64,000 nucleotides of DNA from Melampsora larici-populina 98AG31 (taxonomy: Eukaryota > Basidiomycota > Pucciniomycetes > Pucciniales > Melampsoraceae). Made by a program: the position numbers and the translations under genes. The stretch spans positions 84,233 through 148,232 of the forward strand of contig NW_006768766.1 in the NCBI RefSeq assembly GCF_000204055.1, written 5' to 3'. Shown here in pieces: positions 4,187 through 48,811 of this stretch; the first letter of the stretch is position 1, and each line of letters opens with the position of its first letter. A model generated the notes under the pieces. That model searched no databases and was not told the origin of the DNA. It worked only from the letters and a program-made list of their open reading frames with translations.

Positions 4187-4425
4187 CAACGCCACCGGCG
4201 CTCCGCCCGAGATAGCGGCAGCGGCGCGGTAGCACAGCGCGCGCTCCGCTCGCGCTATGCCTTTTTTTATATAGCGGGTCCCGGGTTTCACTATAGCTAT
4301 GGTGAAACCTGGAGGCATATAGCGGTTTTGAGATCCGCTCTCTATAGCGGTATTTCGCTGTGCTATGGCACAGCGACCGCGAGCGCATATCAACAGGGCG
4401 CCTCAGAGCGCCCCTTAGTGCCTCA
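4187..4425. repeat. GC-rich subterminal block of Pack-1, left side
   Basis: This block is strikingly GC-rich in an AT-rich window and dense in GCTCCGC, AGCGG and GCGCTATG motifs in both orientations. It includes a stem-loop pairing GGTTTCAC with GTGAAACC (about 4284-4311). The inner edge at about 4397-4420 has GGGCGC and GCGCC motifs like those at the inner edge of the right-side block (11833-11855). Arrays of short subterminal motifs are typical transposase-binding regions of hAT-like elements; that role is inferred here. Confidence 0.65.
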
Positions 4426-4735
4426 GAGAACGGGTGATTGTGGTTCCGTGGCCCGTGGGTAATCTCCAGATCAGACTACCCACCTCAACCTCATATTTAC
4501 CACCATCGGTCTCACCACACATTCACCTCCACACCCTCATACCACCAATGACATTCACCTCCACGCCTCCAAATCATCCAAAAGGAAGTATCCTTCAAAC
4601 CTTTTTTGGATACTGCTGTTTCCAGATCGAACATACCCACCTCAACCTTGTACCACCAACAATCTCACCACACATTCACCACCATGCTCTCATAAATGTT
4701 TAAACAAAATGAACATCAAATAATTTTATATAACA
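4426..4735. repeat. CCACC-rich stretch with a diverged internal duplication
   Basis: Two diverged copies of a roughly 75-bp CACC-rich segment (about 4469-4545 and 4620-4692) share ACCCACCTCAACC, TCTCACCACACATTCACC and CTCATA. No gene is recognised. The stretch lies between the GC-rich block and the G-alpha fragment. Confidence 0.55.
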
Positions 4736-4739
4736 TCCA

Positions 4740-4834
4740 ATAGAATCATATTGAACCAAGTGAAACAGAGTTATCCAAAGGAATTTTATTTTCAAATACA
4801 ATTCAATCAATGGCAGTGATCTTAGACGTGATGA
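4740..4834 (+). pseudogene. G-protein alpha subunit fragment, part 1 (upstream of Copia-1)
   Basis: The frame reads EPSETELSKGILFSNTIQSM followed by AVILDVM. This corresponds to the helical-domain segment of fungal G-alpha subunits (family pattern: ...FSNTxQSMRxxLDAM...). The frame runs straight into the copia insertion and, after removing Copia-1 and one GATGA copy, continues as KMIEIPLG at 11065. The upstream GTP-binding P-loop (GxGESGKS) is absent, so only the part after it was captured or retained. G-alpha proteins relay GPCR signals at the plasma membrane; this copy cannot, being truncated and split. Confidence 0.8.
4830..4834. repeat. Target-site duplication GATGA, left copy (Copia-1)
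   Basis: GATGA at 4830-4834 directly precedes the LTR, and GATGA at 11060-11064 directly follows the other LTR. A 5-bp duplication is the expected signature of copia integrase. Confidence 0.9.
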
Positions 4835-5670
4835 TGTGAATGTTTTGGAGCCTGAAAACACGGGTCTGATATAAAGCACCTTGGCTTTGATAAGCTACTG
4901 ACTCAACCACACGTTCTAGTAAAAAGGCTTCTGACCTGATATAAAGCACCTTGGCTTTGATAAGCTACTGACTCAACCACACGTTCTAGTAAAAAGGCTT
5001 CTGACCTGTGAGCAGGTTCAGAATAGTAATGTAGAACAAGTTAGTTGAAGTTATCTTAAGCTTCAATAACTGATCTTCGGAGTAGCACAAGAGACAAGAT
5101 TCTCTTCCCAAAGATATAATTTTATTCACCTGATATAAAGCACCTTGGCTTTGATAAGCTACTGACTCAACCACACGTTCTAGTAAAAAGGCTTCTGACC
5201 TACAACACCAAACAAGTTAATAGAGAAAATATAGAGAAAAAGGAGAAAGTTGAATGTACCTGTGAGCAGGTTCAGAATAGTAATGTAGAACGAGTTAGTT
5301 GAAGTTATCTTAAGCTTCGATAACTGATCTTTGGAGTAGCACAAGAGACAAGACTATAAGGTAAATAGAAAACATAAGAAATGAAACATAGAGAAAAGTA
5401 TTGTTAATGATAAAACAGTCAATGAATGAAATAGTGAAATTTACGTACTTCTCTTCCCAAAGATGGGGAAAAGAGAAGTACGATGAGAGAGGATTTTGGT
5501 ATATAAGGAATGAAAACTTTTGATTTGATTAGTTGGGGTAATGTTAATGATCTTCTTTCTTCTCGTCTAAGATTGAATCTTGGTGATGTTCTTCTGGGAT
5601 TGCGAATCACTTGCAGTTAGGTGTTGCTTGTTATGTACATAACTGAGTGCGTCAATTGGAGTTTTCAACA
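4835..5670 (-). repeat. Copia-1 3' LTR
   Basis: This is an 836-bp copy of the LTR at 10224-11059. A 70-bp module A occurs at 4866-4935, 4936-5005 and 5130-5199. A longer module B, beginning CTGTGAGCAGG on the plus strand, occurs at 5006 and about 5261. On the sense strand every junction between modules reads AG|GT. A TATA box (TTATATACC on the minus strand, about 5496-5504) is followed by an inverted repeat (GTACTTCTCTT / AAGAGAAGTAC, 5446-5480). Confidence 0.93.
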
Positions 5671-5678
5671 CCCCCCTT
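5671..5678 (-). promoter_or_regulatory. Copia-1 polypurine tract
   Basis: The plus strand reads CCCCCCTT directly next to the 3' LTR, so the element's sense strand has AAGGGGGG. This purine run is the expected primer for plus-strand DNA synthesis. Copia-2 has the equivalent run at 21845-21852. Confidence 0.85.
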
Positions 5679-5701
5679 CAATCGACAGAATCAAAAGACC
5701 C

Positions 5702-8700
5702 TTACTCGTCAATGTGTTTTAAGCCTATTTGGCGTCTAAACTTGTTGAAGGGCCCAGGATGTAATGGTTTAGTTAGGATATCCGCGATCATGTCTTCTGT
5801 CTTGCAGTGTGTAAGTTTGATGATACCTTCATTAACCTTTTCGCGCAACCAATGGAAGTGAATTTCGATTGCTTTTGTACGTCCGTGTAGAACAGCATCC
5901 TTTGAAAGGTCTATAGCACTCAAGCTATCACAGTTGAGTAGGTAGGGTGTAGGTTGAGTGAAACCAATGGACTCCATAAATCTGGCGAGCCATATCATTT
6001 CGTTGCCCGCTTCATTAGCGGCGCGGTATTCTGCCTCCGTGGATGATTTAGCAACAGTTTGTTGAAGCCGACTCCGCCAGCTGATTGCGCCACCACAAAA
6101 AAGAAAAATGTATCCAGTGGTAGAACGGCGAGTGCTTTTGTCACCTGCCCAGTCCGCGTCGGCAAAGTGTTCTGGGAGAGTATATCCGTTGTTGCTTGAA
6201 ACGGCGGTTGATGCTGTGTTGGTGTAGTGAAGACAGTGGTTGATGGTGCCTGACAAGTATCGCAGGACGTGCTTGAATGCCTCCCAGTGTCGTAAAGAGG
6301 GCTTGTGGAGGTGTTGAGAAAGACATCCCACCGCATATGTAATGTCAGGGCGGGTACATTGATATAGATACATAAGGCTTCCCACACCACTGTTGTATGG
6401 GAGGTTTAGTAAAGCGAACGAGCGAGCCTCGTCATCGGTGGATTTAGTGAGCTTTGTCCCGCCTGGGAAAGGTGTGGATGCAGATTTGCAGTCGGTCATT
6501 CCAAAACGCTCAAGAAGCGAGCGCGTCATTGCCTCCTGACCAATGATGTAGTGGTGATTTGAAGCACGGACAAGTTGAATACCTACCACGCAAGTTGAGA
6601 TGCCTTGGTCTTCCATTGGCCAGAAGGTGCTGATTTCCTTCTTGAATTCTTGAATTTTGTTGCCAGTGATGGCCAAGTCGTCTACGTGTAGGTAGAATAA
6701 ACAAACCTCATTGATGCGTCTTCTGATGTACACACATTCATCAGCGGGTGATTGCTTGAACCCGGCCTTGATGCATTTCTTCTTGAAGTCGTCATTCCAA
6801 TCTCTTGCCGATTGCTTGAGTCCGTATAGCGCCTGATCTACCTCACAGACAAGATCATCATCTTCCTCACCCTCTTCGTAGCCTTCTGGCTGCTCCATAT
6901 AGATTTGTTCTTTGAGTTTGCTATTGAGGAAGGCTGCAATGGCGTCCATAGAATGAATTTCGTAGCCATGATAGGTTGCGAAGGCTACTAGGGCTCGAAA
7001 TGCTGAGGGTTTACCTGTTGGAGCAAAGGTGTCGGTGTAGTCAATGCCGTAGGTTTGTGTATAACCTTTGGCAACAAATCTAGCTTTATATTTATTGATT
7101 GTTCCATCTGGATGTAGCTTGACTTTGAAATGCCATCGGCTGCCTACCACGGGTCTATTAGTTGGTTGTGGTACTAGATGCCATACTTTGCGATCATGCA
7201 TGTTCTGAATTTCCTTGCCGCAGGCTGCTTTCCATTTGTCACGGTCTGAGTTGTTCATTGCCGATTTGAAGTTATGAGGTTCATTAACCAAACAAACAAC
7301 GGTTCCGACAGCGAATGCATACGGGAAGTGATCATGAAGATCCATGAAGGCACCATCGTCATCCCAGTCGGCGAAACTGGCGGAAGGACGATAGCGTTCA
7401 ACAGGGACTCGTTCTCTAGTGGACCGTCTAGGCTGGTATTGAGGGACATCTTCCGTGCGCTGAGGTAGCTCGATAGGTTGAGTAAAAAGGGGTTCAGAGA
7501 CATTTAGGTTTTCTTCCTCCTGGTGCATTCCTTCACCACCAGGGTATGGGACGTCGTCGTTGATTTCCTCGATTGCAGGATTATCAACGGAAGGATCCGG
7601 TAAAAGTGCGTTTTCCTCTTCATCAAAGGACAGGTGCGATAGGTCGAAAGCTTTCATCTTCTTGAGTGGAAAAGATGTTTCTCGAAAAAGAACGTCATGA
7701 GACACGACAATAGTGTTGGATTCAATGATGAAGACCTCATAGTTGAGGTTGTGTTCTGTGTGGCCTAGCAGAATGGCTTGACGTGAAACAGGTTGAAACT
7801 TACCACCGCGAATGGCTTTACGTATTAAAACGTAGCATAAGCAACCGATGGGTTTAACGTGGCTGACGTTGGGTTGTCTTCCATTCCATAATTGGAAAGG
7901 TGTTTTACCTAAAGGAAGCAATGAGGAGATGGTGCGGTTTTTTAAGTAGACAGAAGCTTTAATGGCGTAGATCCAGAATTTGACAGGTAGGTTGGCTTCG
8001 AGCATAATAGCTCGTGCCGGCTCAGTGATAGTCCGATTTGATCTTTCAGCTACACCATTTTCTTCTGGTGTGTAAGTGGCAGTGGTACGGAGGTAGATAC
8101 CCAGATCTTTACAATAGGGCACTAGCATATCGTTGATGAACTCGTAACCATTGTCGAGGGTGAACATCTTGACTTCTGAATTACACTGCCTTTCTACTAG
8201 GGTAATGTATTGCTTGATTTTATTGAAGACAACATCTGCTGATTTGGTGCTTAGACCCACTACATGCCTATATCTTGAAAAGTCATCGGTGAATAACATA
8301 AAATACATGCTTCCATCCACCGCGACTGATCTGATAATACCACTAAGGTCCAGGTGAATGTTTTCTAACAGATTTAAGCTACGGACATGAGTTTTGTTGT
8401 GGGGAATGCGATGGGCTTTAGAAAGATCACAGGGGGTACAAGATAGGCTGTCAGGAATGGACGAGGCTTTAAGATCCAGTCCTATGAGACTTCCATGTAG
8501 CAGCATAGTTTTCATATATTGGACATTCGGGTGACCTAGACGACGGTGCAGATTGAGAACGTTTTCGTCAGTACTGGAGGTGATGGTGTTGGCTTCAGGC
8601 GTTGAAGTGATGTGTTGAATTCTCACCGAGGATCTGAGTAGGTTGACGTTATCACTCAAAGTCCCAGTGAAAGCGCATTTATTGTTCTTGGTGATTATGA

Positions 8701-10186
8701 AACGATTGTCCTTCTTAGTGATGAAATCGTCCTTTAGTAGGATTGTTCCACCAATAAGACTGCGTTTGAGGTCGGGAATGTGCAAGCAATTTTTTAAAGT
8801 AAAGTGATGACCGTCAGGACCTAAGAAATTCACTTCGCCTTTGCCAACAATTTTGAGTGTAGCTTTTCCTCCTGCCATTTTAAGGGAATTATTGGAGCTT
8901 TCCAGGTTATGATAGTTGGTGAACACATGTTTGTCTTTGAACATATGGTGTGAAGCTGCCGTGTCAATAAGCACGTCGATATCGTTTGGTTGCCGATGAT
9001 CATTAGTAATTGACAAGGCTTGAACCGACATGTGGCTGGCGCAAGGACTCATGGAGTTGAAGGCATCTTCGAGTTGCTCGATGGTTGGTTCGTCCTTGAA
9101 GATGGTGGCGGCAGAGGATGATTTGGTGAGATTTCTTGGCGGTTCACCGTTCCATTGACCAAGCTTGACCCTTTGTTCAATCCATTCTCTTTGAAGGTGT
9201 TCGTTGCCAGGTTTCTTAAAGCACATGTCCGGAGTATGATTAATGCCCCTGCATTTCTTTTTAGTGCATTTGTTTTGATTTTTGTTACGAGAATAAGAGT
9301 TAGAGACGAAACTAGCTTCAGCTGAGTGATTCAGAATGGTCGTTTGCTTTGTGACAATTGGGTTCTTCGTTAACATTGCAACGGCGTCCATCCTTTTCTT
9401 TAATTCAGACACAACCAAATCATAATCTTTTATACCAGCAATTGCGATTTCTTTTGCATCTTGAAAGTAGCTGTTGTTTAGGGAGATTAATAACTTTCTG
9501 CCAAGATCTTCATCACTCATTGTTCCGCCTGCTGTTTTGTACTTTGTGACGGCGGTTTGGAAATTTTCGATATGAGTTAAAAGAGGCAGATTGGGGGCTT
9601 GGACAATAAGATTCAAAGAACGTTCTAATAATAATCGAAGTTCTTCAGATCTTCCTGAATGGTGCGTGGTGATAGCCTTCCAAAGTTTTGCTGGTAGGTT
9701 TTGAGTGTCTGGTCCATCGTCTTCATAGATAGTCATCTTAGGCTTGAATCTAGCTCTGTTGATATCGTCCATATTGTTTAGCATCCAGCTTGTAATACAA
9801 GCTCTGCTAACCTCGTCATCGAATTGACTATTTTCAAGTTTGATGGAATCAGAGATTAAGTATTCAGATATGAACATTGATTTTAGTCTTGACTTGATGA
9901 AAGAGGCCCATAGCATGTATGTTTCATCGGTGAGCTTTTTTAGGGATCTATCAAGAGATTGGTTTAAGATCATTGCTTGTTGTTGAACATTCATTTCAAC
10001 TGGTAACGGTGGCATTGATGATGACATGGCTGGTTTAGATAATGGATTAAGAGAGCTGGATTGTGGTGGTGGTCTGAGCGAAGAGGAGATATTGACGGAT
10101 GTGCGATCACCTTCGTTGTCTGAGTTATCAGATGGAGGGATTGGACTGGTCGTTTGTGCGAAGAATTTATCCGGATTCAGACTCAT
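5702..10186 (-). CDS. Copia-1 Gag-Pol polyprotein (intact frame, 1494 aa)
   Basis: This single uninterrupted frame encodes Gag, protease, integrase, reverse transcriptase and RNase H in Ty1/copia order. Approximate residues: zinc-knuckle-like CX4CX4HX4C near 305-320 (two residues longer in the first gap than the usual CX2C), protease DTAASHHM near 406, integrase HHCC finger (HRRLGHP near 545, C..C near 580) and its catalytic D, D, E (HLDLSG near 610, TLDNGYEF near 675, PEENGVAER near 708). Reverse transcriptase YLHVDDL is near 1165. RNase H has ADADWAGD near 1340 and SSTEAEYRA near 1380. All key residues look present, so the protein could be active. Gag and Pol lie in one frame without a visible frameshift site. 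Confidence 0.95.
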   Translation of the reverse strand: MSLNPDKFFAQTTSPIPPSDNSDNEGDRTSVNISSSLRPPPQSSSLNPLSKPAMSSSMPPLPVEMNVQQQAMILNQSLDRSLKKLTDETYMLWASFIKSRLKSMFISEYLISDSIKLENSQFDDEVSRACITSWMLNNMDDINRARFKPKMTIYEDDGPDTQNLPAKLWKAITTHHSGRSEELRLLLERSLNLIVQAPNLPLLTHIENFQTAVTKYKTAGGTMSDEDLGRKLLISLNNSYFQDAKEIAIAGIKDYDLVVSELKKRMDAVAMLTKNPIVTKQTTILNHSAEASFVSNSYSRNKNQNKCTKKKCRGINHTPDMCFKKPGNEHLQREWIEQRVKLGQWNGEPPRNLTKSSSAATIFKDEPTIEQLEDAFNSMSPCASHMSVQALSITNDHRQPNDIDVLIDTAASHHMFKDKHVFTNYHNLESSNNSLKMAGGKATLKIVGKGEVNFLGPDGHHFTLKNCLHIPDLKRSLIGGTILLKDDFITKKDNRFIITKNNKCAFTGTLSDNVNLLRSSVRIQHITSTPEANTITSSTDENVLNLHRRLGHPNVQYMKTMLLHGSLIGLDLKASSIPDSLSCTPCDLSKAHRIPHNKTHVRSLNLLENIHLDLSGIIRSVAVDGSMYFMLFTDDFSRYRHVVGLSTKSADVVFNKIKQYITLVERQCNSEVKMFTLDNGYEFINDMLVPYCKDLGIYLRTTATYTPEENGVAERSNRTITEPARAIMLEANLPVKFWIYAIKASVYLKNRTISSLLPLGKTPFQLWNGRQPNVSHVKPIGCLCYVLIRKAIRGGKFQPVSRQAILLGHTEHNLNYEVFIIESNTIVVSHDVLFRETSFPLKKMKAFDLSHLSFDEEENALLPDPSVDNPAIEEINDDVPYPGGEGMHQEEENLNVSEPLFTQPIELPQRTEDVPQYQPRRSTRERVPVERYRPSASFADWDDDGAFMDLHDHFPYAFAVGTVVCLVNEPHNFKSAMNNSDRDKWKAACGKEIQNMHDRKVWHLVPQPTNRPVVGSRWHFKVKLHPDGTINKYKARFVAKGYTQTYGIDYTDTFAPTGKPSAFRALVAFATYHGYEIHSMDAIAAFLNSKLKEQIYMEQPEGYEEGEEDDDLVCEVDQALYGLKQSARDWNDDFKKKCIKAGFKQSPADECVYIRRRINEVCLFYLHVDDLAITGNKIQEFKKEISTFWPMEDQGISTCVVGIQLVRASNHHYIIGQEAMTRSLLERFGMTDCKSASTPFPGGTKLTKSTDDEARSFALLNLPYNSGVGSLMYLYQCTRPDITYAVGCLSQHLHKPSLRHWEAFKHVLRYLSGTINHCLHYTNTASTAVSSNNGYTLPEHFADADWAGDKSTRRSTTGYIFLFCGGAISWRSRLQQTVAKSSTEAEYRAANEAGNEMIWLARFMESIGFTQPTPYLLNCDSLSAIDLSKDAVLHGRTKAIEIHFHWLREKVNEGIIKLTHCKTEDMIADILTKPLHPGPFNKFRRQIGLKHIDE

Positions 10187-10211
10187 TCAATAGTTGGATC
10201 GTTTGAAATTA

Positions 10212-10223
10212 CTCTCGCTACCA
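10212..10223 (-). promoter_or_regulatory. Copia-1 primer binding site, tRNA 3'-end type
   Basis: The minus strand reads TGGTAGCGAGAG immediately after the 5' LTR, complementary to a tRNA 3' end ...CTCTCGCTACCA including the CCA tail. The GCTACCA end matches initiator tRNA-Met acceptors of other fungi, but the rust tRNA itself is not in this window. Copia-2 has the identical 12-mer. Confidence 0.8.
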
Positions 10224-11059
10224 TGTGAATGTTTTGGAGCCTGAAAACACGGGTCTGATATAAAGCACCTTGGCTTTGATAAGCTACTGACTCAACCACA
10301 CGTTCTAGTAAAAAGGCTTCTGACCTGATATAAAGCACCTTGGCTTTGATAAGCTACTGACTCAACCACACGTTCTAGTAAAAAGGCTTCTGACCTGTGA
10401 GCAGGTTCAGAATAGTAATGTAGAACGAGTTAGTTGAAGTTATCTTAAGCTTCAACAACTGATCTTCGGAGTAGCACAAGAGACAAGATTCTCTTCCCAA
10501 AGATATAATTTTATTCACCTGATATAAAGCACCTTGGCTTTGATAAGCTACTGACTCAACCACACGTTCTAGTAAAAAGGCTTCTGACCTACAACACCAA
10601 ACAAGTTAATAGAGAAAATATAGAGAAAAAGGGGAAAGTTGAATGTACCTGTGAGCAGGTTCAGAATAGTAATGTAGAACGAGTTAGTTGAAGTTATCTT
10701 AAGCTTTGATAACTGATCTTTGGAGTAGCACAAGAGACAAGACTATAAGGTAAATAGAAAACATAAGAAACGAAACATAGAGAAAAGTATTGTTAATGAT
10801 AAAACAGTCAATGAATGAAATAGTGAAATTTACGTACTTCTCTTCCCAAAGATGGGGAAAAGAGAAGTACGATGAGAGAGGATTTTGGTATATAAGGAAT
10901 GAAAACTTTTGATTTGATTAGTTGGGGTAATGTTAATGATCTTCTTTCTTCTTGTCTAAGATTGAATCTTGGTGATGTTCTTCTGGGATTGCAAATCACT
11001 TGCGGTTAGGTGTTGCTTGTTATGTACATAACTGAGTGCGTCGATTGGAGTTTTCAACA
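10224..11059 (-). repeat. Copia-1 5' LTR
   Basis: This is the 836-bp promoter-bearing LTR. Modules are A at 10255-10324, 10325-10394 and 10519-10588, and B from 10395 and from 10649. Every junction reads AC|CT on the plus strand, so AG|GT on the transcribed strand. The presumed transcript starts downstream of the TATA near 10890 and would contain all modules before the primer binding site. Confidence 0.93.
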
Positions 11060-11665
11060 GATGAAAATGATAGAAATCCCATTAGGTTCATCTCAATTAG
11101 AACCATTAGCCAAATTGATTTGTTCTCTACCTCCTCAAATTGAAGATCAACCTTCAGATCCCTCTGCTGTACAAGCTATTTGTTTACTTTGGAATGATCC
11201 TGATGTACATCAAAGTTCCGATTGTAATGGAGAGTATCAGCTCAGTTTTTCATTTCTCTTGAAAATAACTAGTGATCCTTTTTGATTTCATCTGTTCTTT
11301 TCATCTTTTTATAGGCTTAATGTTTCAGCAGCATATCATTTTGATTCTATAGATTGGATCGGAAAACCAGGTTATTTACCAAACGATCGAGATGTATTAA
11401 GATCCAGAGTCGGGAGAACTGGGATTACTGCAACTGTCTTTGTGATTGGTCGATTGAATTATTGAATGTTGGATGTGGGAGGTCAGGGAAGTGAAAGGAA
11501 GAAATAGATTCATTGTTCTTAAAATGTAACAGCTATAGTGCTATTGAATGAACATATTTTATTCGATTTGTAATTCAGGATGGTTGACAAAAACTTTTAT
11601 AATTTTGTTTTAGATGAAACCAATTTGTCTAAAGAAAAATTCAGGATTCAAAAATTTAAAATTAC
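11060..11665 (+). pseudogene. G-protein alpha subunit fragment, part 2
   Basis: After the TSD the frame continues with LEPLAKLICSLPPQIEDQ and VQAICLLWNDPDVHQ. An intron remnant ends at about 11313, and the next exon reads [20 protein letters not shown], then [18 protein letters not shown]. It then shows the switch II region as DVGGQGSERKK (11472-11505), where the family has DVGGQRSERKK. In-frame stops precede and follow this region. Near 11580-11650 WLTKTFIILF and LKKN resemble the family's W...KTSIILFLNKIDLF region. This is a clearly decayed G-alpha copy, truncated at both ends. Confidence 0.85.
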
Positions 11666-11832
11666 TTTCTTGACTTTCAACCCTTACCATCACATGCAAC
11701 TGATCAAGATAGATCATAAGCTGGTGCTGATTTCTTTTTTAATAAGTTTATTAGTCTTGATCAAAGTCCTACTAAACAGGTCAGTTTTCTTTCTTTTTTT
11801 CTCTTTGACTTTTCTATTTAAAAAATTCCCAA

Positions 11833-12027
11833 CAGCGCTTTTAGGCGCTTTCAAACGTGAGACTTGCCTATAGCGGAGCGGAGCGATCTAAAAGACCGCA
11901 CCGCTCTCAGAAGTCATAGCGCTCCAAAAAGAATAGCGGAGCAATTAGCGTTTTATCATAGCGCTGAATTGCTCCGCTCATGAAATTTCGAGATATAGTG
12001 GAGCGGAGCGGAGCGCCGGTGGTGTTG
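11833..12027. repeat. GC-rich subterminal block of Pack-1, right side
   Basis: This is a block of GCGGAGCGGAGC, TAGCGCT and GCTCCGCT motifs ending in the right TIR at 12008-12027. Its composition is the mirror of the left block at 4187-4425. No coding is seen. Confidence 0.65.
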
Positions 12028-12257
12028 TCAATGGAACACAAAGTAACCAGTCAAGCATGTAAGCTCTTACAAGATCTATTCAATACTCACAAGATACAGC
12101 TTGATTCAACTGCAAGTAAGACACAAAATCAACATGCTTGTAAGGCTCCTAAGACTGTGTCATCAAACAAGGCGGGTCCCAACAATCTGTTACATCTTTT
12201 CGAGGCTCAAGAGCCTGAGGTCAATTGAAATGAGATTGCTTCTTATCTCAAGGGTAC
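12028..12257 (+). pseudogene. hAT1 transposase, middle segment after the Pack-1 insertion
   Basis: The frame resumes with HKVTSQACKLLQDLFNTHK, the stretch that follows FFEQAF in hAT transposases. It then has a low-complexity linker and NEIASYLKG, preceded by a TGA (EVN-stop-NEI). At 12257 the frame is broken by the MITE. After excision of the MITE and one GGTAC it reads YLKGTHPMSV, as expected for a hAT protein. Confidence 0.7.
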
Positions 12258-12556
12258 ACCATGTCAGTATCCGTGTAGCACGTCGACGTGCACACACGGA
12301 GAGTTGTGAAGAAAAACAGAAAGCTGTTTGGTAGGCTTTAGACTGAGATCGGTGCCAAGCACCCTTTGTGAATGACAATTTGACAAAAGAATTTGTGGGA
12401 TCCTTTGTCAGCAGTTGGGTTCAACTGAGTGCCAACGTCCCAGTTGACAAAGGGAAGACATGCCTATTGTGGAGACCTCTTTAATGGGTCTTTCAAGTAT
12501 GTATTGAAAGTATTTGGTGTGTGCACGTTGACGTGCTACACGGATACGGACACGGT
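12258..12556. mobile_element. 299-bp MITE with about 42-bp TIRs and GGTAC target-site duplication
   Basis: The left end ACCATGTCAGTATCCGTGTA (12258) and the right end (inverse to 12556) are near-perfect TIRs extending through a SalI-like palindrome GCACGTCGACGTGC to about 12298 and 12516. GGTAC lies on both sides (12253-12257 and 12557-12561). Removing the element plus one GGTAC restores the hAT1 reading frame, which confirms the boundaries. No coding capacity is visible. A 5-bp TSD does not fit hAT (8), Harbinger (3) or Tc1/mariner (2), so the superfamily is open. Confidence 0.85.
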
Positions 12557-12561
12557 GGTAC

Positions 12562-12618: not shown

Positions 12619-14548
12619 CAACACAGCCACTGTAATATCCTATACTAGTATCAGCCAATACTAGTATAGTACCGTAGGCACCGGTACTTTTTTTACCCTG
12701 GGTATAGTATAGTATCGGCCTCTGGAATTCGATACTTCCGGTACTTCTCTTGCTCTCTCTGTTTGACTCCATGGCAACATCAGGGATGCACAAATGAGAT
12801 GCTTTCCATTGATATTCATTGAATGCAACTTGAAATTGAAAGAAAATATCATAAAAACCTCGCTTCACTCTGTTGATTTCTTTTTATCTTTGGCTTTGGA
12901 TTGCACATCAATTATTGTTTGATCTATTGCATGGCTTGCCTTATTATTTCAACACAATTACTATCAATTTTTCACTTGTTATACACTATTCATTAAATAC
13001 ATTTTGTGAAGAGAAAAGTTCATAAGCTTGAAATGAGAACAATGAACAGAACAATGAACAGAACGAACTCAATCGCCAGCAAAATGTGGAGGCTGGTTCA
13101 TAGTCTTGTGTAAAACCTGAGCAGCTTTATCATCCTTGATGCACTCCTCCATAATCCGGTAGGCCTCCTCAAATCCTGAATCTAGTGGGACTCCATTTGA
13201 AATCCATAGCCAACTACTCACACAACATTCAATTGTCCTTGGAACTAATGTTCCACGGTCTGTGGTGCAGACATCCGCAGCTGATGAAAACGTTCGCTCA
13301 CCAGCGGCCGAGCTCCCACTGACAGCAAGATATCGGCGAGCTAGACTTGAAAGAATAGGGTACTTTCCTTCGTGGCTCTGTCAATGAGAGAATTCAATTT
13401 CAGACTCTTGACCTAATTTACAAGAAAAAAAGAAGATGAAGAGAACTCACCTGCCACCACTTCAATGCCAGGTTAGGGTCCATTGCAACATCCTGTGAAG
13501 GTGCATCATGTGAAAGCTGATATTCAGTTAGTTCATCAATTGTAGAGTTCCCCTTTTGTGCATCATGGAGATGTAACATTGGGTCGTATGCATTGTCGTT
13601 GCATTCGGCACTTGTAGGTGTTGCTTCTGGTTGAGATGCTGGAGCTTGTGATGAATGGTTTTGTTCAAGTTGATGCTTGCGAGAATAGTATGCATCAGCC
13701 AACAGTTTGTTGGCTTTTGCAGTTACAGGAGATCGAGGTCCAAATCCTGCATTGGAAAAGCTGGCTCTCCAGCTTGGATGAAGGATTGTGGCCATCAAGA
13801 GAGCATGTGAGGATGTTGCTTCGGCAAGGTACCTCTTCACTTGCGTGAGCATAGCATAATGCATCGGATACATCGGAGAGGTGGTTAATTCTTGGAGAAG
13901 TTTGGACTCCAAGCGAGTCTTGAGCTTGAGGTATTCTCGGATTACCATTGAGCCAGTTGGGCCATCGCCTTCCATTCGTTTGGTAAGCTGTGCAAAATGC
14001 TAAAGAACATAGATTGATCAGCACAAAGCCATGTTTAATGAAAAAAATGTAGTAACCTCGAGCTCAAGGTTAACTGTCTTGATCAGCTTCCAATCATCCG
14101 GGGTGAAGCTGATCTTGAGGAAGCATCCTTTAGTGTAGTTGATGGTGGGGTTGCACGTATTTGTAGCTCAACAATCGGCGTCGTCTTGCTGATCATTTTT
14201 GAGAATCTCATCAATAATCTTCATATAGATACAAGGATTAGTACATGCTTAGAATTCAAGAACATAGGAGCTGAGTGGGATAGTTATAGGGTATACAAAT
14301 ATGTTCTGGAAATTTCCCAAAGGTTTTTTCCAGAATGCCAGAAGTTTTTTTTTTGGTGAGTTCTGGCTTTCTGGCTTTTGGCATATTTGAACGCAGCGCA
14401 CTTCCAGAACACCAGAAACCCCACTACATGACTCATCCACCACCCCTCGTCCCCACTCACATCATCACTTTACATCACCATCAGCCAGCTTATCTCAAAA
14501 CTACACTTGTCTCAAATCCGCTCTACCACACCTCCTACTCCTCCTGCA

Positions 14549-16233
14549 ATGCCTCGATCAAGCCGTCGTCGACTTCTGAAACGGTCAGTCCATCTGGCAA
14601 TCAACGAGAAGAATCGCATCACACAGCCGAACTTTTCAACTTTAGCATTAGTGAAAAAAAGAAATCATGAAAGTTTATTCATACTTCGTTGTCTGCAAGC
14701 AATCATCACGCATCAAAACCAACAATCGGAGGCTCTAGCGGATAAGGATAATGATGTTATTGATGATCTCGTGGCTAAGAAGCCCTTGTTGCTTTTGTTG
14801 CTAGGCGCGCTGGAGTTCCACTTGGCCTGTGCAAAGTCAGTCAAGCTTCTACTACTTGGACGTCGTCTACGTCAAATAGCTCAAAATGAAGTCCATCGCC
14901 TGGAAGAGGCTTTACACATTTTGAATACAACCCGTTATGTTCATGATCGGCCATCTCGTGAACGGAAAGACTTAAGAAACACCTCGTTTCCGCACCGATT
15001 TTGGGAAGGAGGTGATTCCTTTATAGCTATAGTAAGTGCGATTTCTGATAGTTTCTTGCTTTCAGCTAATATTTGCTATTTGACTTCCTCTTTTAGGCTC
15101 GAATGAGCGAGGAGCGTTTTTGGACATTGGTGGACTTGATTAAGTCCAGTGAGGTATTTCAAAGTTGGTCAAATCACAAACAAGCACCGGTGCCTTGGCA
15201 GCTGCTTGTGGCTCTAGCAAACCTTGGATCTTCGGGAAACGGAGGCGATCACTCACATATAGCATATATGTTTCACATTTCAGGTGAAACAACTTCCTCC
15301 TTTGGTGAAACTTTGTTCGGTTCATTTTGTTTACTGATACGGTGCAATCTTTTAGAAGGTAGTGTTCAAAACTGGACCAATCGATGTATATATGCCATCC
15401 TTGAAATCGAAAAAGAATGGGTCTTTTGGCCAGATGAAGACGAACAATTATCACTCAAATCTGAAATGAAGTCCACTGTCTTCACAGATACAGTGGGCTT
15501 CATGGATGGGACTCTGATTCCACTGGCCTATGCACCGGTGAACAATCCGGAAGACTACTGGACACGCAAGAATTTTTATGCTTTCAACGTGATGCTAGTC
15601 TGTGACATACACAAAACCATACGATTCTACGAGCTGGGTTGGTGCGGGTCTGCTCATGATCAAAGGGTTTTTCGTTCTTCTGTAGTAAGTTTTTTTTGCG
15701 ATGTGAGCTTGATGTAGGCATTCCAGGGTATCTAACCGACTTCCTTGAAGCTCTTCACAAATCCTGAAGAATTCCTGGAAGATGACGAGTATCTATTGGC
15801 GGATTCAGGTTACACTTTATCTCCACACGTGATTACGCCGTTCAAACGCTGCCAGGGTCGACGTTTGGGAAATAACAAAAATGCTTTCAATGAGGAGTTA
15901 AGTAAGTGGAGGGTAGTAATTGAACAAAGCATTGGTATGCTGAAGGAGAGGTTCCAGTCTTTAAAAGAGATCAGGGTCTTATTATGTGGGGTATCAAGCG
16001 CTAAAAGAGTGAATTCTTGGATTCGAGTATGTATAATCTTACATAACTTCTCAAAAGCAAACGGGGAAGAGTGGCATACCGAGTTTGGGGCCAACCAACA
16101 AGCCTCTTTTCGCAACGCTGGACCTGCAAGGCCTACTGGCAACCCGTCTTCAGGAGATGTGTATGATTTTGGACAAGATACAACTAGGCGTGATGCTCTA
16201 TTTGCAGAGTTTATTTCACATAGACGCGTTTGA
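14549..16233 (+). CDS. PIF/Harbinger DDE transposase (4 exons, 493 aa)
   Basis: Exons are 14549-15031, 15097-15283, 15356-15684 and 15751-16233; total length is a multiple of three. The third-position intron at 15284-15355 is 72 bp and stop-free, so an unspliced reading frame also stays open. Splicing it joins MFHIS to EGSVQNWTNR, the pattern normal for this family. DDE_Tnp_4-type motifs are FMDGTLIPLA (first Asp), LLADSGYTLSPHVITPFKR (second Asp) and VVIEQSIGMLKERFQSL (Glu). An in-frame ATG at 14507 could be used instead; 14549 was chosen because MPRSSRRRLL begins the basic N-terminus. It cuts and pastes the element together with the accessory protein. Confidence 0.88.
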
Positions 16234-16895: not shown

Positions 16896-18778
16896 TTACG
16901 TTTGATCAACACTCTTGTATAAATCTTCGGCAATGACTTTTGCTTGATCATAAGGGATTTTGTTGTCCTTCATAAGCTGATTGATGAATTGCCCTTTGGC
17001 GACTGCCAATTCCAATTCCATAGAGCGTTTCGTTTTTTGTACATCCAATTGTGCCGCCTCAAGCTGACAGACCTTAAGCTTTGCATCCACCTGAGCTTGT
17101 TCAATTTGCTCGTTTTTGGTCAACAAACTCTTTGAATTGTGGTTTGGAATCAAGGCACCGGCCAAATCCTTCATGATATCCTTCATTTGATTATTTTCAA
17201 GCTCGGATTTGATGAAAACCTCTTCAAGCCGGGTGATTGCGGAATTTGTTTCGGTGTCTGGCTGAGAAAGTAATTGAGTAACTTGAGATTCAGCACCACG
17301 TTTGTTGTTCTTGCGAGTTTGTGAAGATTGACCCGAACTACTGCTATATAAGCTGCGAGTTTTAAACGATGGACGCTGGACTTCTGGAGATACTTTGTGA
17401 TCTAGAGAAGAATCCACATGAATTAATATTGGTTGATCGAATCATGATAAAGCCAAAAATATTCACCGTTACGTTGAATCTGTGTATCTAGAGACAAGTG
17501 GAGAAGAAGACACGTTAGTTCAAATATAACCAATCAACAAACCAAAACTTACCATCATCTTCAAATTCGTCGTTCAGAGCATGTCGCATTTGATCATTGA
17601 AATTCTCTTCAACTTGATCAGTTAAGGCTTTTTGACGATAGAACTCTTCATTTGAATCGTCAGAATGATCATCGTCGAATCGAGTGTTTGGTTCCAAAAC
17701 ATCAGAGACTTGTGAGGACTTCAACCTCTTTGATGAGCTCCCTACAAAATCTAAAGAACTGTTGGCAGGATTCGGTGCAGCACTGGTTGCTACATCGAGT
17801 CGAGTAGCCTTGTCTCGAGTGCCCAGGATGTGTTTGATTTGATAATAGTATTTACATTTATGATTGATTATGTAGTCTGAAATAAAACACGATTAGCAGA
17901 AGTCATGAGTCAAACTTAACCATTGATAGACTCACCCTCTATCAACGACTTCTTACGCTCCAAATAAGCTGGGTCGTCATCAGACCAGCCTTCTTTTTCC
18001 TTCTCCGCCTCAAGGTCATTCATCACACCCTTACCAGTCCCATCCAGCCACTCAACCGCTTTATTGAACTTCTTTTCAAGCTCCAAAATCTGGAAGAAGA
18101 AAGGCGTTAGTCAGTTATAAAACAACCTGTAACTAATATGAACAGACTTGCCTTTCCATGCACGTTCTTGACGGTTCGGCCATAAAATCCATGTTGAGCT
18201 AAGTAATCGATAATGTCCTCCACTGTATGAGCTTTAACTATAGTGCTGTCCTTATAACGAGCCCAATTACCATAAGTTGTAATCCAATTCAACAGCACAC
18301 TCATCGCGCTTTCCCCCTTATCATTTTTTTCGTCTTCCCAATAAACTGGCGCCTTTCTAGTGGACACTCCTTCATCGGCTTCTTTGGCTGATCGTTTCCT
18401 GGAGGTGTTGTTTGATTGAGACTTCGGGCTCTTTGGGGTCTTTGGGATCTTGCTCGAGGTGGCTTTGCGAGTCAAAGATGACTGGGGCTTAGTTTTTTGA
18501 GCCTGAGTAGTCTTTCTCAAATTCTTCTTTTTTGGTGAGACTTGATTTTCGATTGGTGGGAGCGAACCCATTGAGTTGAACGAGGATCCAAAAGCTGAGG
18601 GTTGAATGACTGTTGCCGGAAAAGGTTGTGAATAGAAGCTTGGTGAACCAGAACCGAAGTTGAAAGGAAGGGCAGTGGGGTGAACTTGAAAGGTCAAAGG
18701 TGTGATGAGAGGGTTATTTTGAGGACTGCTAGGTTGGCTGGAGGTGGGGGTATCATCTTTGATCACTTGATCAGTCAT
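16896..18778 (-). CDS. Harbinger accessory protein with a SANT/trihelix-like DNA-binding region
   Basis: The start is MTDQVIKDD at 18778. A Ser/Pro/Lys-rich N-terminus (KTPKSPKSQSNN...) is followed by YWEDEKNDKGESAMSVLLNW with ITTYGNWARYKD, which looks like the Myb/SANT or trihelix domain of Harbinger partner proteins. Downstream are an acidic segment (DDDHSDDSNEEFY, about 17670) and a Glu/Gln-rich, probably coiled-coil C-terminus (ITRLEEVFIKSELENNQM and on) ending at 16896. Exon 1 (18152-18778) ends at AAG|GCAAGT, a GC-AG intron (18090-18151); exon 2 is 17936-18089; a further exon covers about 17555-17880 and the last one about 16896-17403. In Harbinger elements this partner helps nuclear import and TIR recognition. 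Exact splicing of the last introns is less sure. Confidence 0.75.
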
Positions 18779-21058
18779 GTCTGAATGGTATGTGGGGAAT
18801 GGATCGGATTTAAGTTGGGAGCACGCAGCTGAAGGTTTGTGTAGTACTGGGTTCATAGACTGAGTTCTGAACTTCTGTGTTTTCCCAAATGCCAGAAGGG
18901 TTCTGGCGTTCTGGAAAAAACCTTCGGGAAATTTCCAGAACATATTTGTATACCCTATTAGATGAAAGAAACTTACATCCCAAGCTTTCCATGCGCAATG
19001 ACGGCTATCCCATTTAATATTCCACCTTATACCATAACCAGCAATCAATGCATCAAATTGGAGTCCCAAAGTAGCTGCAGTCGCAGTTACAAGCGCTCGC
19101 ATAGAAGCTGAGCTGGTGAGTTTACGAATTACAAAATCAAGCTGCAATGACCAGCGGTTTTATCAGCTACATAAGAACAAGCGTTATTTTAGACAAAAGA
19201 TCTTACCCGCTTCAATAGTCCATCCAGATGAGACGCATTGTGTTGATCTGCTGTAGAGGGCGGAACAATGAAAACCAGTTTGTGTGTATTTGCATAAGGA
19301 TTAGCAATTGGAATTGAACTGGTGTGGTTTTCATTGCTGTACCAGTCTTTGCCAACAGTTTGGGCGGAATTGTCAAGAAGATTATGTGATTCATTGCCTT
19401 GAAGAGGGTCTTGAGTGTTGGATACGGGTAGGTTAGTACTCTGGTTGGCTGTGGCGGGGATCTCTTCTTCTTCTTCTTCTTCAAGACCTTCTTCAACAAC
19501 AGATAGGAGATCATTCACTGGGAAGCTTCCAAGTACTGATTTTCGAACTACTTGAGCAGGTGGTGGTGTGACTCCAAGAGCCTCAAGACCCCCATTCACT
19601 ATTAGCAACATCTTGTGACAAAAACACTTGACCATGTTATCCTCAGGATGCCAATTGTAATCTTCACCGGCGTCTTCTGCAATCTTAGAGAGTCGCTTGT
19701 GCATTGCAGTTGCCATTGTATAGTTGTTTGAGCCCGAGTCAGTTGTCTGGGCTAAAAGGTAAATGGAATGAAGAATCAAATGAAATATCAGCTCTTGGTA
19801 ATTACGAGTAACATCAAGGATAGTTGACAAAAGTACTGATCTTTTGATACAGATTATTCTTCTCAAGGATACCTACTAATGGCTCTGCAAGCCATTCTCC
19901 TTTATGATACCATGCCACAAGCTTGAGTGCCAGGTGTTGTGTTTGATAGGTCCAATTTTTATCGATGTAAGTGACCGAAACACCCAGAAATGCGTAACGA
20001 TTTCCAGGAGTTTTCCAGACATCTTGAGAGAGACAAAACGTTGTATCAAGGTCCTAGGAATAACAGCGGATGTGATTGGTTTTGAGAATGCAATTACTGT
20101 GACGGAATTGAAAACAACAAACCTTAAGCCTTTTCATTACACATTGACTGAGTGAAAGATAAGCTCTATGAGCTTCATGAGCAGTCCAAGCCCGTCCATA
20201 CACATGGGCTTCAGGGTTTGAGTACCTAAATGCAGCACGTAGCATATTGTCCTCCATCCTGCGCCAAGGTAGAGCCTGACGAAGGATCCAAAACATCAAG
20301 ATTTGATTTAATATTTTATTGTTGAAAGTCCATGTTGATCGGACCACAGCTTGACCCTTTGTCTTCAGCCTCCTCTCATATGCAGTCTCGGGTAAGTCAA
20401 TTCCTGATTCTATTGCTTGAGATCGTGCTTTACATCCAGGATTACCCGACTTTGAGTGTTGCATTGATCCATCTCGATGAACCTTTAGGTTCTTGTCTGT
20501 ATCAGCACTGCCTCGAACATACAATTTGCACCATAAGCAAGGAAAAGAGAGGTATGGACCTTTGATGGGCTTTGACACAAGTTTTTCAAGACAAAGTTAA
20601 AAAATAGTCTCTTAAAATTACATCATTTCCACCTCTTATGGGTGTACCATAGTATTCAATTGGTTTCGAGTGCTTGCATACCTCCTTTTGAGGCTTAATC
20701 TTTTGATTCTCCTTATCAGAGTCCTGTACAAGATTGACATGTGTTTGGAGGATATTTGATGAAGTAGTCTATTTTTTGCAAAAGGAAAAAGGTCAGATTG
20801 TATTTCAGAAAGAAAAAACAAGGAACTTACTGCAGAAGTTGATATCACTGCTTCGGCGAGCAAATCTTTCTTGGTTTTACGCTTTTTCTTAACCTTGGGA
20901 TTCGAGTTGTTCTTACGCTTTTTTGGGATGTGTTTTGAAGTTTGAGATGAATCAGAATTGGAAGCCGATGTACCTTTTGACGGTTGTCGAGAGCGGGTCG
21001 ATCGGCGTAGAGAGTTTGTTGTTGAGAAGTTGGATTTTGCAGAGGACTCATCTGAAGT

Positions 21059-21844
21059 TAAAAATGTACTTGGTGCTTTGAGATACGGGATCTGATAACA
21101 AGCTTATAGCTGATAAGCACAACGTCAAACAACAGACGTGTGATGATAAAGATCCTGACCTGATAACAAGCTTATAGCTGATAAGCACAACGTCGAACAA
21201 CAGACGTGTGATGATAAAGATCCTGACCTAAAGGCACAGTTAGATGTGTTAGTCTATTAGTTATCTTTTATCAATAACTGATCTTTGGAAGTGATGAAAG
21301 AAGCAAATTTCTCTTTCCCAAAAGATAGTATTATATTCACCTGATAACAAGCTTATAGCTGATAAGCACAACGTCGAACAACAGACGTGTGATGATAAAG
21401 ATCCTGACCTACAACGTTGATCAATCTAATCAGAATTCGTACAAATATGTTAAGAAGGAAAATGAAGTTGTTTAGTACCTAAAGGCACAGTTAGATGTGT
21501 TAGTCTATTAGTTATCTTTTATCGATAACTGATCTTTGGAAGTGATGAAAGAAGCAAATCTATATAAATTTGAAATAGAGAAACAGAAAAGCAGAAAACA
21601 TTAATATAACCATAGTGAGATAACAAAAATATAAGGATTACTTACTTCTCTTTCCCAAAAGATAGGGAAAGAAAAGTAATTGATAAAACGGGTCACTACA
21701 TATATGAGATTTCTTTATCTAAACCGTTGGGGTTATGATATCTTTTGAGTAAATAATAAACCATCTACAATATGTCATTTGTTAATCTAATTTATCATTC
21801 CGTTACCAAAACTCTTTACTTCTCGTCGATTGGATACTTCAACA
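21059..21844 (-). repeat. Copia-2 3' LTR
   Basis: A 68-bp module A occurs at 21092-21159, 21160-21227 and 21341-21408. Module B (CTAAAGGCACAG... on the plus strand) starts at 21228 and 21479. All five internal junctions read AC|CT on plus, so AG|GT on the sense strand. A TATA (CATATATG, about 21700) precedes an inverted repeat (TTACTTCTCTTTCCC / GGGAAAGAAAAGTAA, 21641-21680). Confidence 0.93.
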
Positions 21845-46217: not shown

Positions 46218-47065
46218 AAACTCTACCCCATAGAATAAAATGTTTTCTTCTTCCTTTCTATTTCTTGTCTTTGTAGATCTGTTGCTGTGACAACGATTAA
46301 TGTCAACTTGTTACAAAGAACAGATTTTTTTATACATAGTTGTAATTTGGACGCTATAAGTTTCTTCTTTTCTTTGGAGAGAGTTTGATTCTTTTTTCTT
46401 TTTTTTTGAACATTAATTTTGCAGACGCTATTTTTTTTGGTTTGCTTAACATTAGAGATATATGAATGAAACAAAGTCATCCTTATTACACCTTTTTCTA
46501 GTTGGAAGAGCCCTGTTACAATTGCATGTACCATCAGTTTTCCCCCTCCATTGGACCCATGGCTTTGTTTGCTAGGTCCAGCTTGTAATTTCTAGATAGT
46601 TGAGTAAAGGTGTACAATTTATGATAAAAATTGATAAACCTCACTTGATATCTCTTTGGGTTCTTGTTCCCATCTGTCATTAAGTTGTGTCAAACTTATT
46701 TGACCTTCTCCGCTAAAAATTCGGTGGTGCACATCAGATCTTATGTATGCTCTGACAGACTCTGACCGCCCGATGTCCCGCCTGATGTCTGAGACCCGGG
46801 CGGGCTTAAGATCCATTGGTCTTATGGAAGAAAGTGAGCGTTCATGAAAATTAAATCATACACTTTAAAAATGATTTCGTACTCCTCATAAACTTATAAC
46901 CAGAGTTTTTCGGACTTAGCAAACTCAGATTTATAGCGTGCCGTCACGTATTGGCCAACATGAATATTACAACATAGTTCCACCTTGGCAATAACGGAGG
47001 GGAACTAAACCTCACAACCTTCATACATAGTTAAGCTTAATACATAGTGACTTTTGCCGACAAAG
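46218..47065. other. Intergenic, nothing firmly recognised
   Basis: No gene is seen. Around 46740-46815 a GC-rich stretch (CGGGCGGGCTTA) is faintly similar to 54480-54510 and may be a small repeat. Confidence 0.4.
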
Positions 47066-47072
47066 GCTGACA

Positions 47073-48811
47073 CAACACCTGAAGCGCTCCGCGGCGCTCC
47101 GCTTTTTGGACAAATTTGTGAGGCGGTGCGGTTTGCCGCTACAGATGAGACCCGCTCTCGATCCGCTTTAAGAAGACACCCGCTACATGCGTAATGCAGC
47201 GCGGCGCCAATTGGAGCCGCTCTCGCTCCGCTTCATCAGTTTTGGGGGCAAGGGAGCGGTATGAGGCGATTTTTTGCTCACATTTTTTGTTTTAAGTATT
47301 CGCACTGCAATAAAGATGTAAGTACAATATGATAGAAAAATAAGATCATGTACTATATGAAATGTGACTAGAAAGATAAGTAAGCAAGAGAAGTCGATAA
47401 AGTAAGGAGATAGGCAGTAGCACAAGAAAAAAAATAGAAAGAATGAAGTAAGAAAATATATAATCAATAAGTGACAGGCTAAAGTAAAATACAAGTAAAA
47501 GGATCTAAAGATAAGATAAAATAAAATGGGAATACCATGATCAGTTTAATCAAGAAATGAGTTGAGGTTGGTGGAGGAGTCGTATTGTTTATAGTCCTGA
47601 GAAGCGTCAAATAACAGACCGAGTAGATGATTTCTGGAAAATCAATACCAAGTGACAAGACTCCCTCGATTTAGGGGCTGAGGATACCGTTGGAATCCTG
47701 GCAACAGTGGCAATTGAAATGTGCAATTGAAATCAAATCTGATTCGTGTTTTACTTAGTCTTTACAGCTTTACAAATCAGTGTCTGTTTTGTTGGCTCGA
47801 GATTGGACTACAAGCACGTTCTATTTCAACAAACAAACAAATCAAAGTCAACTTCAATTCATGACATATCTTGCCCAATCTTTGTAAGACTTCAAGACCG
47901 ATTTTACATACCAACATAACTTTCTAAAACAGTTGGTGGAGGTTCATTTCCTGATAAAAGTACCCCTGCACGGTACATGATTTCAGTTTGCTTGTGAATT
48001 TAAAGGTTTGTGATTTCTTGAAGGTAAGTTTTAATCAAAAGCTTGAAAATTGAGTTATTTTGAAGACCAATATTGGAGTTAGAAAATGAGATTGAAGTTG
48101 ATGAGAGTTGATTTGGCAGTGATTGCTCGATGATTATCCAGACCAGAAGCCGAAAGAAAACATTGCTTGATGAGAAATGATAATTACAATTGAGATTGAG
48201 TGATAGATTTAAATTTGATTGAAGTAGACCAAAGCTTAAGTTGAGCAAGATTAAAAGAATGGTTTGAAGACCAAAGTAAATTTAAAATCAAATGTCTAGC
48301 TAGCAAAGGTAATAATCTAAAGATTGATAAACAACTTGAAGGTGATTCGTATAATCGAGAAAGAGTCTGTTCTGGTAAATCGTGTAAGAATTCGGATACA
48401 CTTGAACTGATTTCGATTTTATTGGTCTTTTCCATCTTTCAATATTGAATGAAGCTTTTAAAGTGAATGGAGCTTTGTAAATCGAATCGAATGAAGTTTG
48501 CGTGATTGACAAAACCGGATGAGTATGATCATCCAAACCACACGTATCTGAGTCTGTGGGATCCTGAACGATGGTCTGATAGTGTTCTGATGGTGGAAGC
48601 CAACCGCTGCATACCGCTCTGAGAGGTGCCTGCGGGGCGTAAATTTGACCCGCCACGCTAATTTCCCAATCCGCTTCGTACATAATCTCAGAGGTAGAGC
48701 GGTGGCGGATCGGTTGGTAGATGAGCACCCAAAACTTTGTAGCGACGGCGGAGCGGACCGCCCCGCCCCCGCTCCGCATCCGCTTTTTGCAGCGGGTCGC
48801 TTCAAGTGTTG
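47073..48811. mobile_element. Pack-2: TIR element carrying a TFB2 gene fragment, 7-bp target-site duplication GCTGACA
   Basis: The element is 1,739 bp. The left end is CAACACCTGAAGCGCTCCGC (47073-47092). The right end is the inverse of CAACACTTGAAGCGACCCGC (48792-48811), 17/20 matching. GCTGACA flanks both sides (47066-47072 and 48812-48818); an eighth matching G is ambiguous with the TIR. Both ends have GC-rich GCTCCGC/AGCGG blocks (about 47076-47270 and 48600-48810). The AT-rich interior holds a piece of the TFIIH subunit TFB2. No transposase is encoded. Ends and architecture match Pack-1 at 4187-12027. Confidence 0.85.
48184..48435 (-). pseudogene. TFB2: Captured fragment of TFIIH subunit TFB2/p52 (N-terminal part)
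   Basis: The 83-residue frame reads MEKTNKIEISSSVSEFLHDL, then LYESPSSCLSIFRLLPLLAR, HLILNLLW and LKLWSTS. This is the N-terminal signature of TFB2/GTF2H4 (family: ...FL..L....L.RLY..P..CLA.FR.LP.LA.....LL....P...V.LW...). TFB2 belongs to the TFIIH core and supports XPB in transcription and DNA repair. The frame ends after KSITQSQL. Only faint continuation is visible downstream (NEPPPTVLESYVG, near 47935). The piece lies within Pack-2, so it is a transposed copy and not the host gene. Confidence 0.75.

Follow-up and report, generated by a model that had tools for sequence, protein, structure and literature searches.

How does a small DNA transposon that encodes no transposase come to carry pieces of its host's genes? 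The question is raised by two elements, Pack-1 and Pack-2, in a stretch of 64,000 nucleotides of the rust fungus Melampsora larici-populina 98AG31 (NCBI RefSeq assembly GCF_000204055.1, contig NW_006768766.1, positions 84,233 to 148,232; G000:C2:84233-148232 in the numbering used here), referred to below as the window. The original prediction, made from the letters of the window alone, described the two as one small type of transposon with terminal inverted repeats (TIRs), holding pieces of the genes for a G-protein alpha subunit (G-alpha) and for the TFIIH subunit TFB2, respectively. Both elements are confirmed as real and as members of a genome-wide family. Very probably they are non-autonomous members of the hAT7 kind, mobilised in trans, the interiors of which were filled by template-switching gap repair before the elements transposed again. 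The hAT7 group comprises hAT elements with 7-bp target-site duplications (TSDs) in Pucciniales, including M. larici-populina (PMC12730594, 2025).

A genome-wide family of inverted-repeat elements

The genome searched comprises 98.3 Mb in 243 contigs. The TIR pattern CAACRCNNNNNGCGCTCCGC occurs at 90 exact places and, with at most one mismatch, at 219, against 3 for the reversed control. Thirty-four of the exact places form 17 pairs within 10 kb, all 17 in inverted orientation, and perfect 7-bp TSDs bound each of the 16 pairs outside the window. The repeats thus recur genome-wide as inverted pairs with 7-bp duplications around different host-gene pieces, as would be expected had the prediction been right. 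It was right about a single family and too simple about the ends: there are two related but distinct TIR sets, CAACRCCACCGG and CAACACYTGAAG, and so at least two subfamilies. That all four ends share one 20-bp TIR is ruled out, since the right end of Pack-2 differs. The two TIRs of Pack-1 are identical at 19/20 positions, and the ends of other family members are ∼70–89% similar to its ends.

A scan of 69 loci and the window found a 7-bp TSD in 25 rows, three of which (L037, L038 and L042) are one element, and no match at lengths of 5, 6, 8 or 9 bp; L051 was missed through the TIR limit of the scan. Adding L030 and copies with flanks read by eye brings the insertions with a perfect 7-bp TSD to 30, coding ones included, and L064 has a TSD with one mismatch. 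The TSD scan and the flanks later accounted for 15 of the 56 exact places that had no pair. The 29 TSDs tallied are all different and are biased towards T at position 2 (17/29), C or G at position 4 (24/29) and A at position 6 (14/29), which is close to the pattern nTnnnnAn of hAT TSDs.

The GC-rich subterminal blocks noticed in the two elements are a countable feature of the family. Over 25 elements, a set that includes two near-copy pairs and nested elements, the motifs AGCGG, CCGCT, AGCGC and GCGCT occur 50.4 times per kb in the left 250 bp and 58.2 times per kb in the right 200 bp, compared with 1.05 times per kb in the interior. Where the borders are known, in seven elements, ∼190–390 bp of GC-rich end sequence is kept per side; the left ends of Pack-1 and Pack-2 are longer.

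Anatomy of Pack-1 and Pack-2

The predicted span of Pack-1 has real ends, but a 6.2-kb Copia-like element is nested inside it (Table 1), without which Pack-1 measures ∼1.6 kb. The G-alpha piece flanks the nested element on both sides and runs on to 11806; its Pfam match (7e-11, 42.3 bits) falls short of the curated threshold (48.8), and its donor gene is matched at the DNA level too. Pack-1 was further said to interrupt a hAT transposase frame exactly at its TIRs. This is borne out in part. Open frames do adjoin both TIRs; the left one is a weak hAT RNase-H match (E 0.005, below cut-off) and the right one matched no family. A search for the empty site of such a hAT gene gave no sufficiently close DNA copy among the retrieved loci, and tblastx led to distant hAT relatives only. 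The upstream frames at 2760–4186 have hAT-like motifs by eye (LAQVTDSGSNN...), with the RNase-H match at 3862–4185, and are likely remnants of a different hAT family.

Pack-2 has a perfect 7-bp TSD, as predicted, and its TFB2 piece matches Pfam above the cut-off (2e-13). The notion that each element holds a piece of one housekeeping gene stands for the identity of G-alpha and TFB2 but fails for Pack-2, which is a mosaic with matches to two further loci. The VHS match beside one of these, on C54, is below cut-off (6e-5, 23.4 bits against 29.8). A second copy of Pack-2, at G000:C24:389058, is 100% identical (rounded; 2451 versus 2455 bits) over the 1361 bp compared and is flanked by ATGCTAA instead of GCTGACA (flanks read by eye). 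Elsewhere, L094 (G000:C4:576700-577150) holds a second partial TFB2 start, 91% identical over 116 bp to the piece in Pack-2, with no TIR-like pattern in its 451 bp.

Table 1. The two elements, their parts, and the loci from which captured pieces are derived (positions are those of the window unless a contig, C, or a retrieved locus, L, is named)
Feature	Position	Strand	Remarks
Pack-1, non-autonomous element, very probably hAT7-type, ACCGG TIR subfamily, split by nested Copia-like element	4187..12027	+	TIRs 19/20 identical; no TSD
Pack-1 left TIR CAACGCCACCGGCGCTCCGC	4187..4206	+	
Pack-1 right TIR CAACACCACCGGCGCTCCGC	12008..12027	-	
G-alpha fragment part 1	4739..4834	+	82% to donor C15; element 553-648 vs L071 1410-1504
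Copia-like long terminal repeat (LTR) retrotransposon nested in G-alpha fragment	4835..11059	-	strand taken from long frame; type by eye
LTRs of nested Copia-like element	4835-5670 and 10224-11059		98.9% identical
Long open frame of nested Copia-like element	5702-10186	-	
TSD GATGA (5 bp) of nested Copia-like element	4830-4834 and 11060-11064		
G-alpha fragment part 2, with non-coding interval between two donor coding blocks	11060..11539	+	78.5% to donor; element 6874-7353 vs L071 1500-1996, one alignment
G-alpha fragment part 3	11549..11806	+	80.8% to donor 2147-2406; homologous piece in five other retrieved elements
Pack-2, non-autonomous element, TGAAG TIR subfamily	47073..48811	+	
Pack-2 left TSD GCTGACA	47066..47072	+	
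Pack-2 right TSD GCTGACA	48812..48818	+	
Pack-2 left TIR CAACACCTGAAGCGCTCCGC	47073..47092	+	
Pack-2 right TIR CAACACTTGAAGCGACCCGC	48792..48811	-	17/20 shared with Pack-2 left TIR
Pack-2 captured piece 1	47617..47777	+	78% to G000:C24:1000920; weaker matches at about a dozen other places
Pack-2 captured piece 2	47785..48116	-	75% to G000:C54:476369, locus adjoining weak VHS-domain match
Pack-2 captured piece 3, N-terminal TFB2 fragment	48170..48439	-	88% to TFB2 gene G000:C1:3452473
Donor, G-alpha	C15 (C15:1261772)		Pfam 7.6e-73
Donor, TFB2	C1 (C1:3452473)		Pfam 4.9e-31
Donor, CDC20/Fizzy	C21		Pfam 9.8e-56, 189.6 bits, just below cut-off; open across 433 codons read
Donor, SAPS	C15		Pfam 1.6e-17
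Donor, TOP3-type Toprim	C9		Pfam 1.9e-12
Donor, prenyltransferase beta	C2		Pfam 4e-65
Donor, protein kinase	C9		Pfam 6.4e-63
Donor, oxysterol-binding protein	C38		Pfam 3.3e-7
Mob1 frame adjoining captured stretch	C93		Pfam 7e-21
Sources of Pack-2	C24, C54, C1		
Sources of L042	C27, C10		
Sources of L046	C93, C9, C15		
Sources of L047	C15, C21		
Sources of L051	C8, C58, C38		
Sources of L067	C9, C15		

Donor loci of the captured pieces

Nine interiors were searched against the genome: Pack-2, 800 bp of Pack-1, L040, L041, L042, L046, L047, L051 and L067. All nine match loci outside the family's own copies, with best matches of 75–94% identity, and L045 and L050 share pieces with the searched interiors. 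Parent loci that lie elsewhere and have no TIRs, the mark of Pack-TYPE elements, were found for 9/9 interiors. These include readable loci for G-alpha and TFB2, the existence of which the prediction had left to be checked, with no TIRs in the stretches retrieved. Repeated capture of host-gene pieces by a small DNA transposon is supported by the TIRs, the TSDs and the donors elsewhere.

The identity of three pieces is read from their donors, the matches inside the elements being weak (prenyltransferase in L040, 0.043; kinase in L046, 0.019; VHS in L051, 0.081). The labels TOP3 and prenyltransferase beta subunit are our reading of the domains. Pfam gave no family for pieces of L042, L028, L043, L048, L069 and L050, and weak matches, not used here, for those of L041, L053 and L060. 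The donor frames of L098, L100, L101 and L103 likewise gave nothing in Pfam, and that of L102 gave weak matches to PIG-U and SURF6 (0.004–0.006), which were not used.

Mosaic interiors and the mode of capture

Six of the nine searched interiors are mosaics, drawing on two or three unlinked sources. Thirteen internal junctions were available: nine measured between sources, three gaps within one donor, and one set by hand (CDC20/kinase in L047). At six of the nine between-source junctions the pieces overlap by 1–3 bp, abut without a gap or are joined by a filler of 4 or 7 bp. Such an arrangement is what might be expected of the following sequence of steps: (i) non-autonomous elements of the hAT7 kind would be mobilised in trans by the transposase of related full-length copies, (ii) an element would break or be excised, and the gap would be repaired by DNA synthesis jumping between unlinked templates, (iii) the product would be a patchwork of genomic pieces that takes in non-coding intervals and lies between intact TIRs, with short overlaps at the joints or none, (iv) the filled element then transposes.

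The best-surviving alternative is neighbouring insertion, in which two elements land close together and their outer TIRs are mobilised as a unit with the intervening DNA. This model has been proposed for plant Pack-CACTA and other Pack-TYPE elements, hAT among them (PMC8903248), and L041 and L040, each matching a single donor locus, would suit it. For the mosaics it is disfavoured: six interiors combine two or three contigs, and TIR-like sequence is found in 0/17 donor windows (0.3–3.5 kb). The two models also differ in what they predict at the joints, in that template switching should yield mosaics free of end remnants and neighbouring insertion should leave remnants between the pieces. A transposon-end motif lies within 25 bp of none of the 13 internal junctions, which favours template-switching repair over the fusion of neighbouring insertions. 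As a general explanation of the family, neighbouring insertion is unlikely.

Several points weigh against filling by template switching and subsequent transposition. L040 and L041, with one donor locus each, are equally compatible with neighbouring insertion; three of the nine between-source junctions have gaps of 24, 53 and 97 bp, and the overlaps of 1–3 bp at others may be fortuitous. The donor search left out L028, L043/L052, L048, L053, L060/L065, L069, L045, L050 and part of Pack-1, several captured pieces have a weak Pfam match or none, and some donor searches (L042, Pack-2 piece 1) matched several paralogous places. Two complete insertions have no TSD, namely the L067 copy at C18:837046 and Pack-1 itself, where a TSD of 3–12 bp was sought and none was found (AAGTTC precedes the element and TCAATGG follows it). 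No partner is assigned to 41 of the 90 exact TIR places, either because the stretch was not retrieved or because none was seen within it, in some cases over 6.6 kb. The source of Pack-2's own transposase, finally, is one that we infer.

Superfamily and source of transposase

Parts of a hAT transposase are encoded by three related copies with perfect TSDs, L039 (5.3 kb), L044 (4.6 kb) and L066 (4.5 kb), the ends of which align to those of the non-coding elements. A query made of two L044 frames and one L049 frame joined by X matches the hAT-like RNase-H fold (9.7e-7) and the dimerisation region (6.8e-6) in Pfam, both above their cut-offs; Pfam gave no family for a putative zinc-finger stretch of L039. 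The C-terminal motif of the transposase is present in eight loci, or seven distinct places, as L018 and L039 overlap. One transposase exon has at least 155 matches in the genome, many with stops (150 of 966 candidates scored). For the subfamily of Pack-2 the link is indirect: transposase matches of 43–53% identity lie inward of 5/19 TGAAG-like TIR places, by eye and with no control, on C1, C4, C14 and C56 (2.4–4.3 kb) and on C70 (7.5 kb).

The family fits hAT7 in its 7-bp TSD and hAT transposase, the hAT7 set being compared by description. The original prediction likened the elements to Pack-MULEs (Pack-type Mutator-like elements), and the likeness extends to what they do and to their anatomy: TIRs, pieces of host genes and no transposase. 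It does not extend to the superfamily. MULEs have TSDs of ∼9 bp (8–11), against 7 bp here; the TIRs are short, and the related copies encode a hAT transposase, for which reason hAT7 is preferred to MULEs and membership of the latter is rejected. That the family belongs to MULEs or to yet another superfamily is very improbable. Helitrons have neither TIRs nor a TSD, and the presence of both rules out that class.

Genomic templates

A hAT element of Pseudocercospora that carries histone H3 has been argued to have captured a spliced mRNA or a retrocopy (PMC6710886), and the same might be asked of the rust family. The G-alpha piece answers it, for it aligns to its donor through the non-coding interval between two coding blocks in one alignment, so its template was genomic. 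The TOP3 and prenyltransferase pieces seem to span non-coding intervals likewise, the L041 block covers two open frames plus the stretch between them, and none of the pieces examined contains an exact exon–exon junction. Capture from mRNA is rejected for the G-alpha piece and is scarcely credible as a general route.

Order of captures and movement afterwards

The same 3' G-alpha piece is found in six retrieved elements (Pack-1, L045, L046, L047, L050 and L054) and ends at donor positions 2378–2426. In a tree built from the ends alone, with two near-copies (L054, L065) and two members of the TGAAG type (L069, W2) left out, the five non-duplicate carriers make up one side of one branch (support 97/90), and other types of cargo sit on other branches, L040 beside the transposase-bearing L066 and L067 beside L035. 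The carriers are one group by their ends, and G-alpha was captured once. One of them, L045 (G000:C36:479436-488914), is 9.5 kb long; its interior has further long frames, one of them transposase-like by eye.

Within this clade L047 records a second round. Its interior reads CDC20, then 22 bp, then G-alpha, and the 22 bp agree at 20/21 positions with the kinase piece of L046 and at 19/21 with the kinase gene, and not with the CDC20 donor. CDC20 therefore went into an element in which kinase and G-alpha had already been joined, and replaced all but 21–22 bp of the kinase piece. The clade would thus have gained the G-alpha piece early, the kinase piece next and, in L047, CDC20 later.

Filled elements have also moved. 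The chimera of TOP3 with SAPS represented by L067 exists in five copies of 99–100% identity, four with different perfect TSDs and one without; L060 and L065 share 99.95% identity but differ in their TSDs, and Pack-2 has its second copy on C24. Near-identical copies with different TSDs show mobility after capture, and it is on this ground that the last of the steps proposed above was included. The idea that the gene pieces are ancestral loci hit by chance TIR-like repeats, for which no support was found, is refuted by the separate readable donors, the perfect outer TSDs and the near-identical filled copies at several sites.

A bolder reading, tentative and a shade short of probable, casts hAT7 ends as a continuing shuffler of gene fragments. 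Breakage, repair by template switching and transposition, round after round, would load one lineage serially (G-alpha, then kinase with the Mob1-neighbouring stretch, then CDC20), and the recent, moving TOP3/SAPS chimeras may be transcribed.

Other features of the window

A second Copia-like element (by eye) lies at 21092–26970, with an open frame of 1520 codons and ends that bear repeats, and resembles the one nested in Pack-1. Another hAT-like locus is discernible by eye at 18107–20596 on the minus strand (LAQTTDSGSNNYTM motif), and open frames at 14432–15717 resemble a PIF/Harbinger-type DDE transposase, by eye only. At 12257–12557 there is an inverted pair of 41 bp, 93% identical and separated by ∼220 bp, perhaps a small miniature inverted-repeat transposable element (MITE); diverged relatives occur in L005. 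A frame at 59000–59587 looks by eye like the C-terminal part of phosphofructokinase. No tRNA genes were found in the window.

Significance and comparison with known systems

In plants, the capture of multiple genes by TIR transposons is a main theme of genome evolution; it has also been shown in animals and is hardly documented in fungi. The nine searched cases, with their near-identical copies, known donors and base-resolved junctions, make the mode of acquisition by cut-and-paste elements testable. In annotations of rust genomes, captured pieces could be listed as genes or paralogues, or they could feed small RNAs against their parent genes. If the shuffler reading is true, the family is a stepwise fungal record of serial capture by a cut-and-paste transposon.

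Fungal cases in the searched literature concern single genes or domains (histone H3, TET/JBP and a transporter-type coiled-coil frame). Among the results listed from that literature, which included few subscription papers and no preprints, none reports multi-gene fragment capture by rust hAT elements. In the text available, a 2025 survey of rust transposable elements lists hAT and MITEs and mentions no gene capture (PMC12210899), and a 2026 review of capture in plants has no word starting with 'fung' (PMC13317346).

The hAT7 elements of PMC12730594 have in common with the present family a hAT transposase, a 7-bp TSD and rust hosts. Those families are coding elements, of which twenty carry a TET/JBP gene, and the portion available mentions no non-autonomous carriers of fragments. 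Histone H3 in hAT elements of Pyrenophora tritici-repentis and Pseudocercospora (PMC3538342, PMC6710886) is likewise a host gene in a fungal hAT, but a single gene beside hAT transposase sequence, judged in P. fijiensis to come from a transcript or retrocopy and flanked by an 8-bp TSD (PMC6710886); the rust elements carry many genomic fragments, mostly without transposase, between 7-bp TSDs.

Plant Pack-TYPE elements, including Pack-hAT (PMC8903248), are also non-autonomous TIR elements with gene pieces, more variable inside than at their ends and in some cases with two genes. Their hAT TSD is 8 bp and neighbouring insertion is favoured for them, whereas the rust interiors draw on up to three unlinked sources and have no end remnants. 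Pack-MULEs (PMC6446971) are alike in role and anatomy and differ in superfamily, TSD and TIR length. Animal Pack-TIRs, such as Pack-hAT-N8_XT (PMC8277862), are alike in gap filling, template switching at short microhomology and multiplication by transposition. Single-copy animal Pack-TIRs are ascribed to transposition-independent gap filling with a bias in cis (PMC8277862), whereas several of the rust types are multicopy and their donors lie on other contigs. Pack-type capture is thus known in plants and animals, and capture of single genes by hAT elements in ascomycetes; the rust family is a variant of these.

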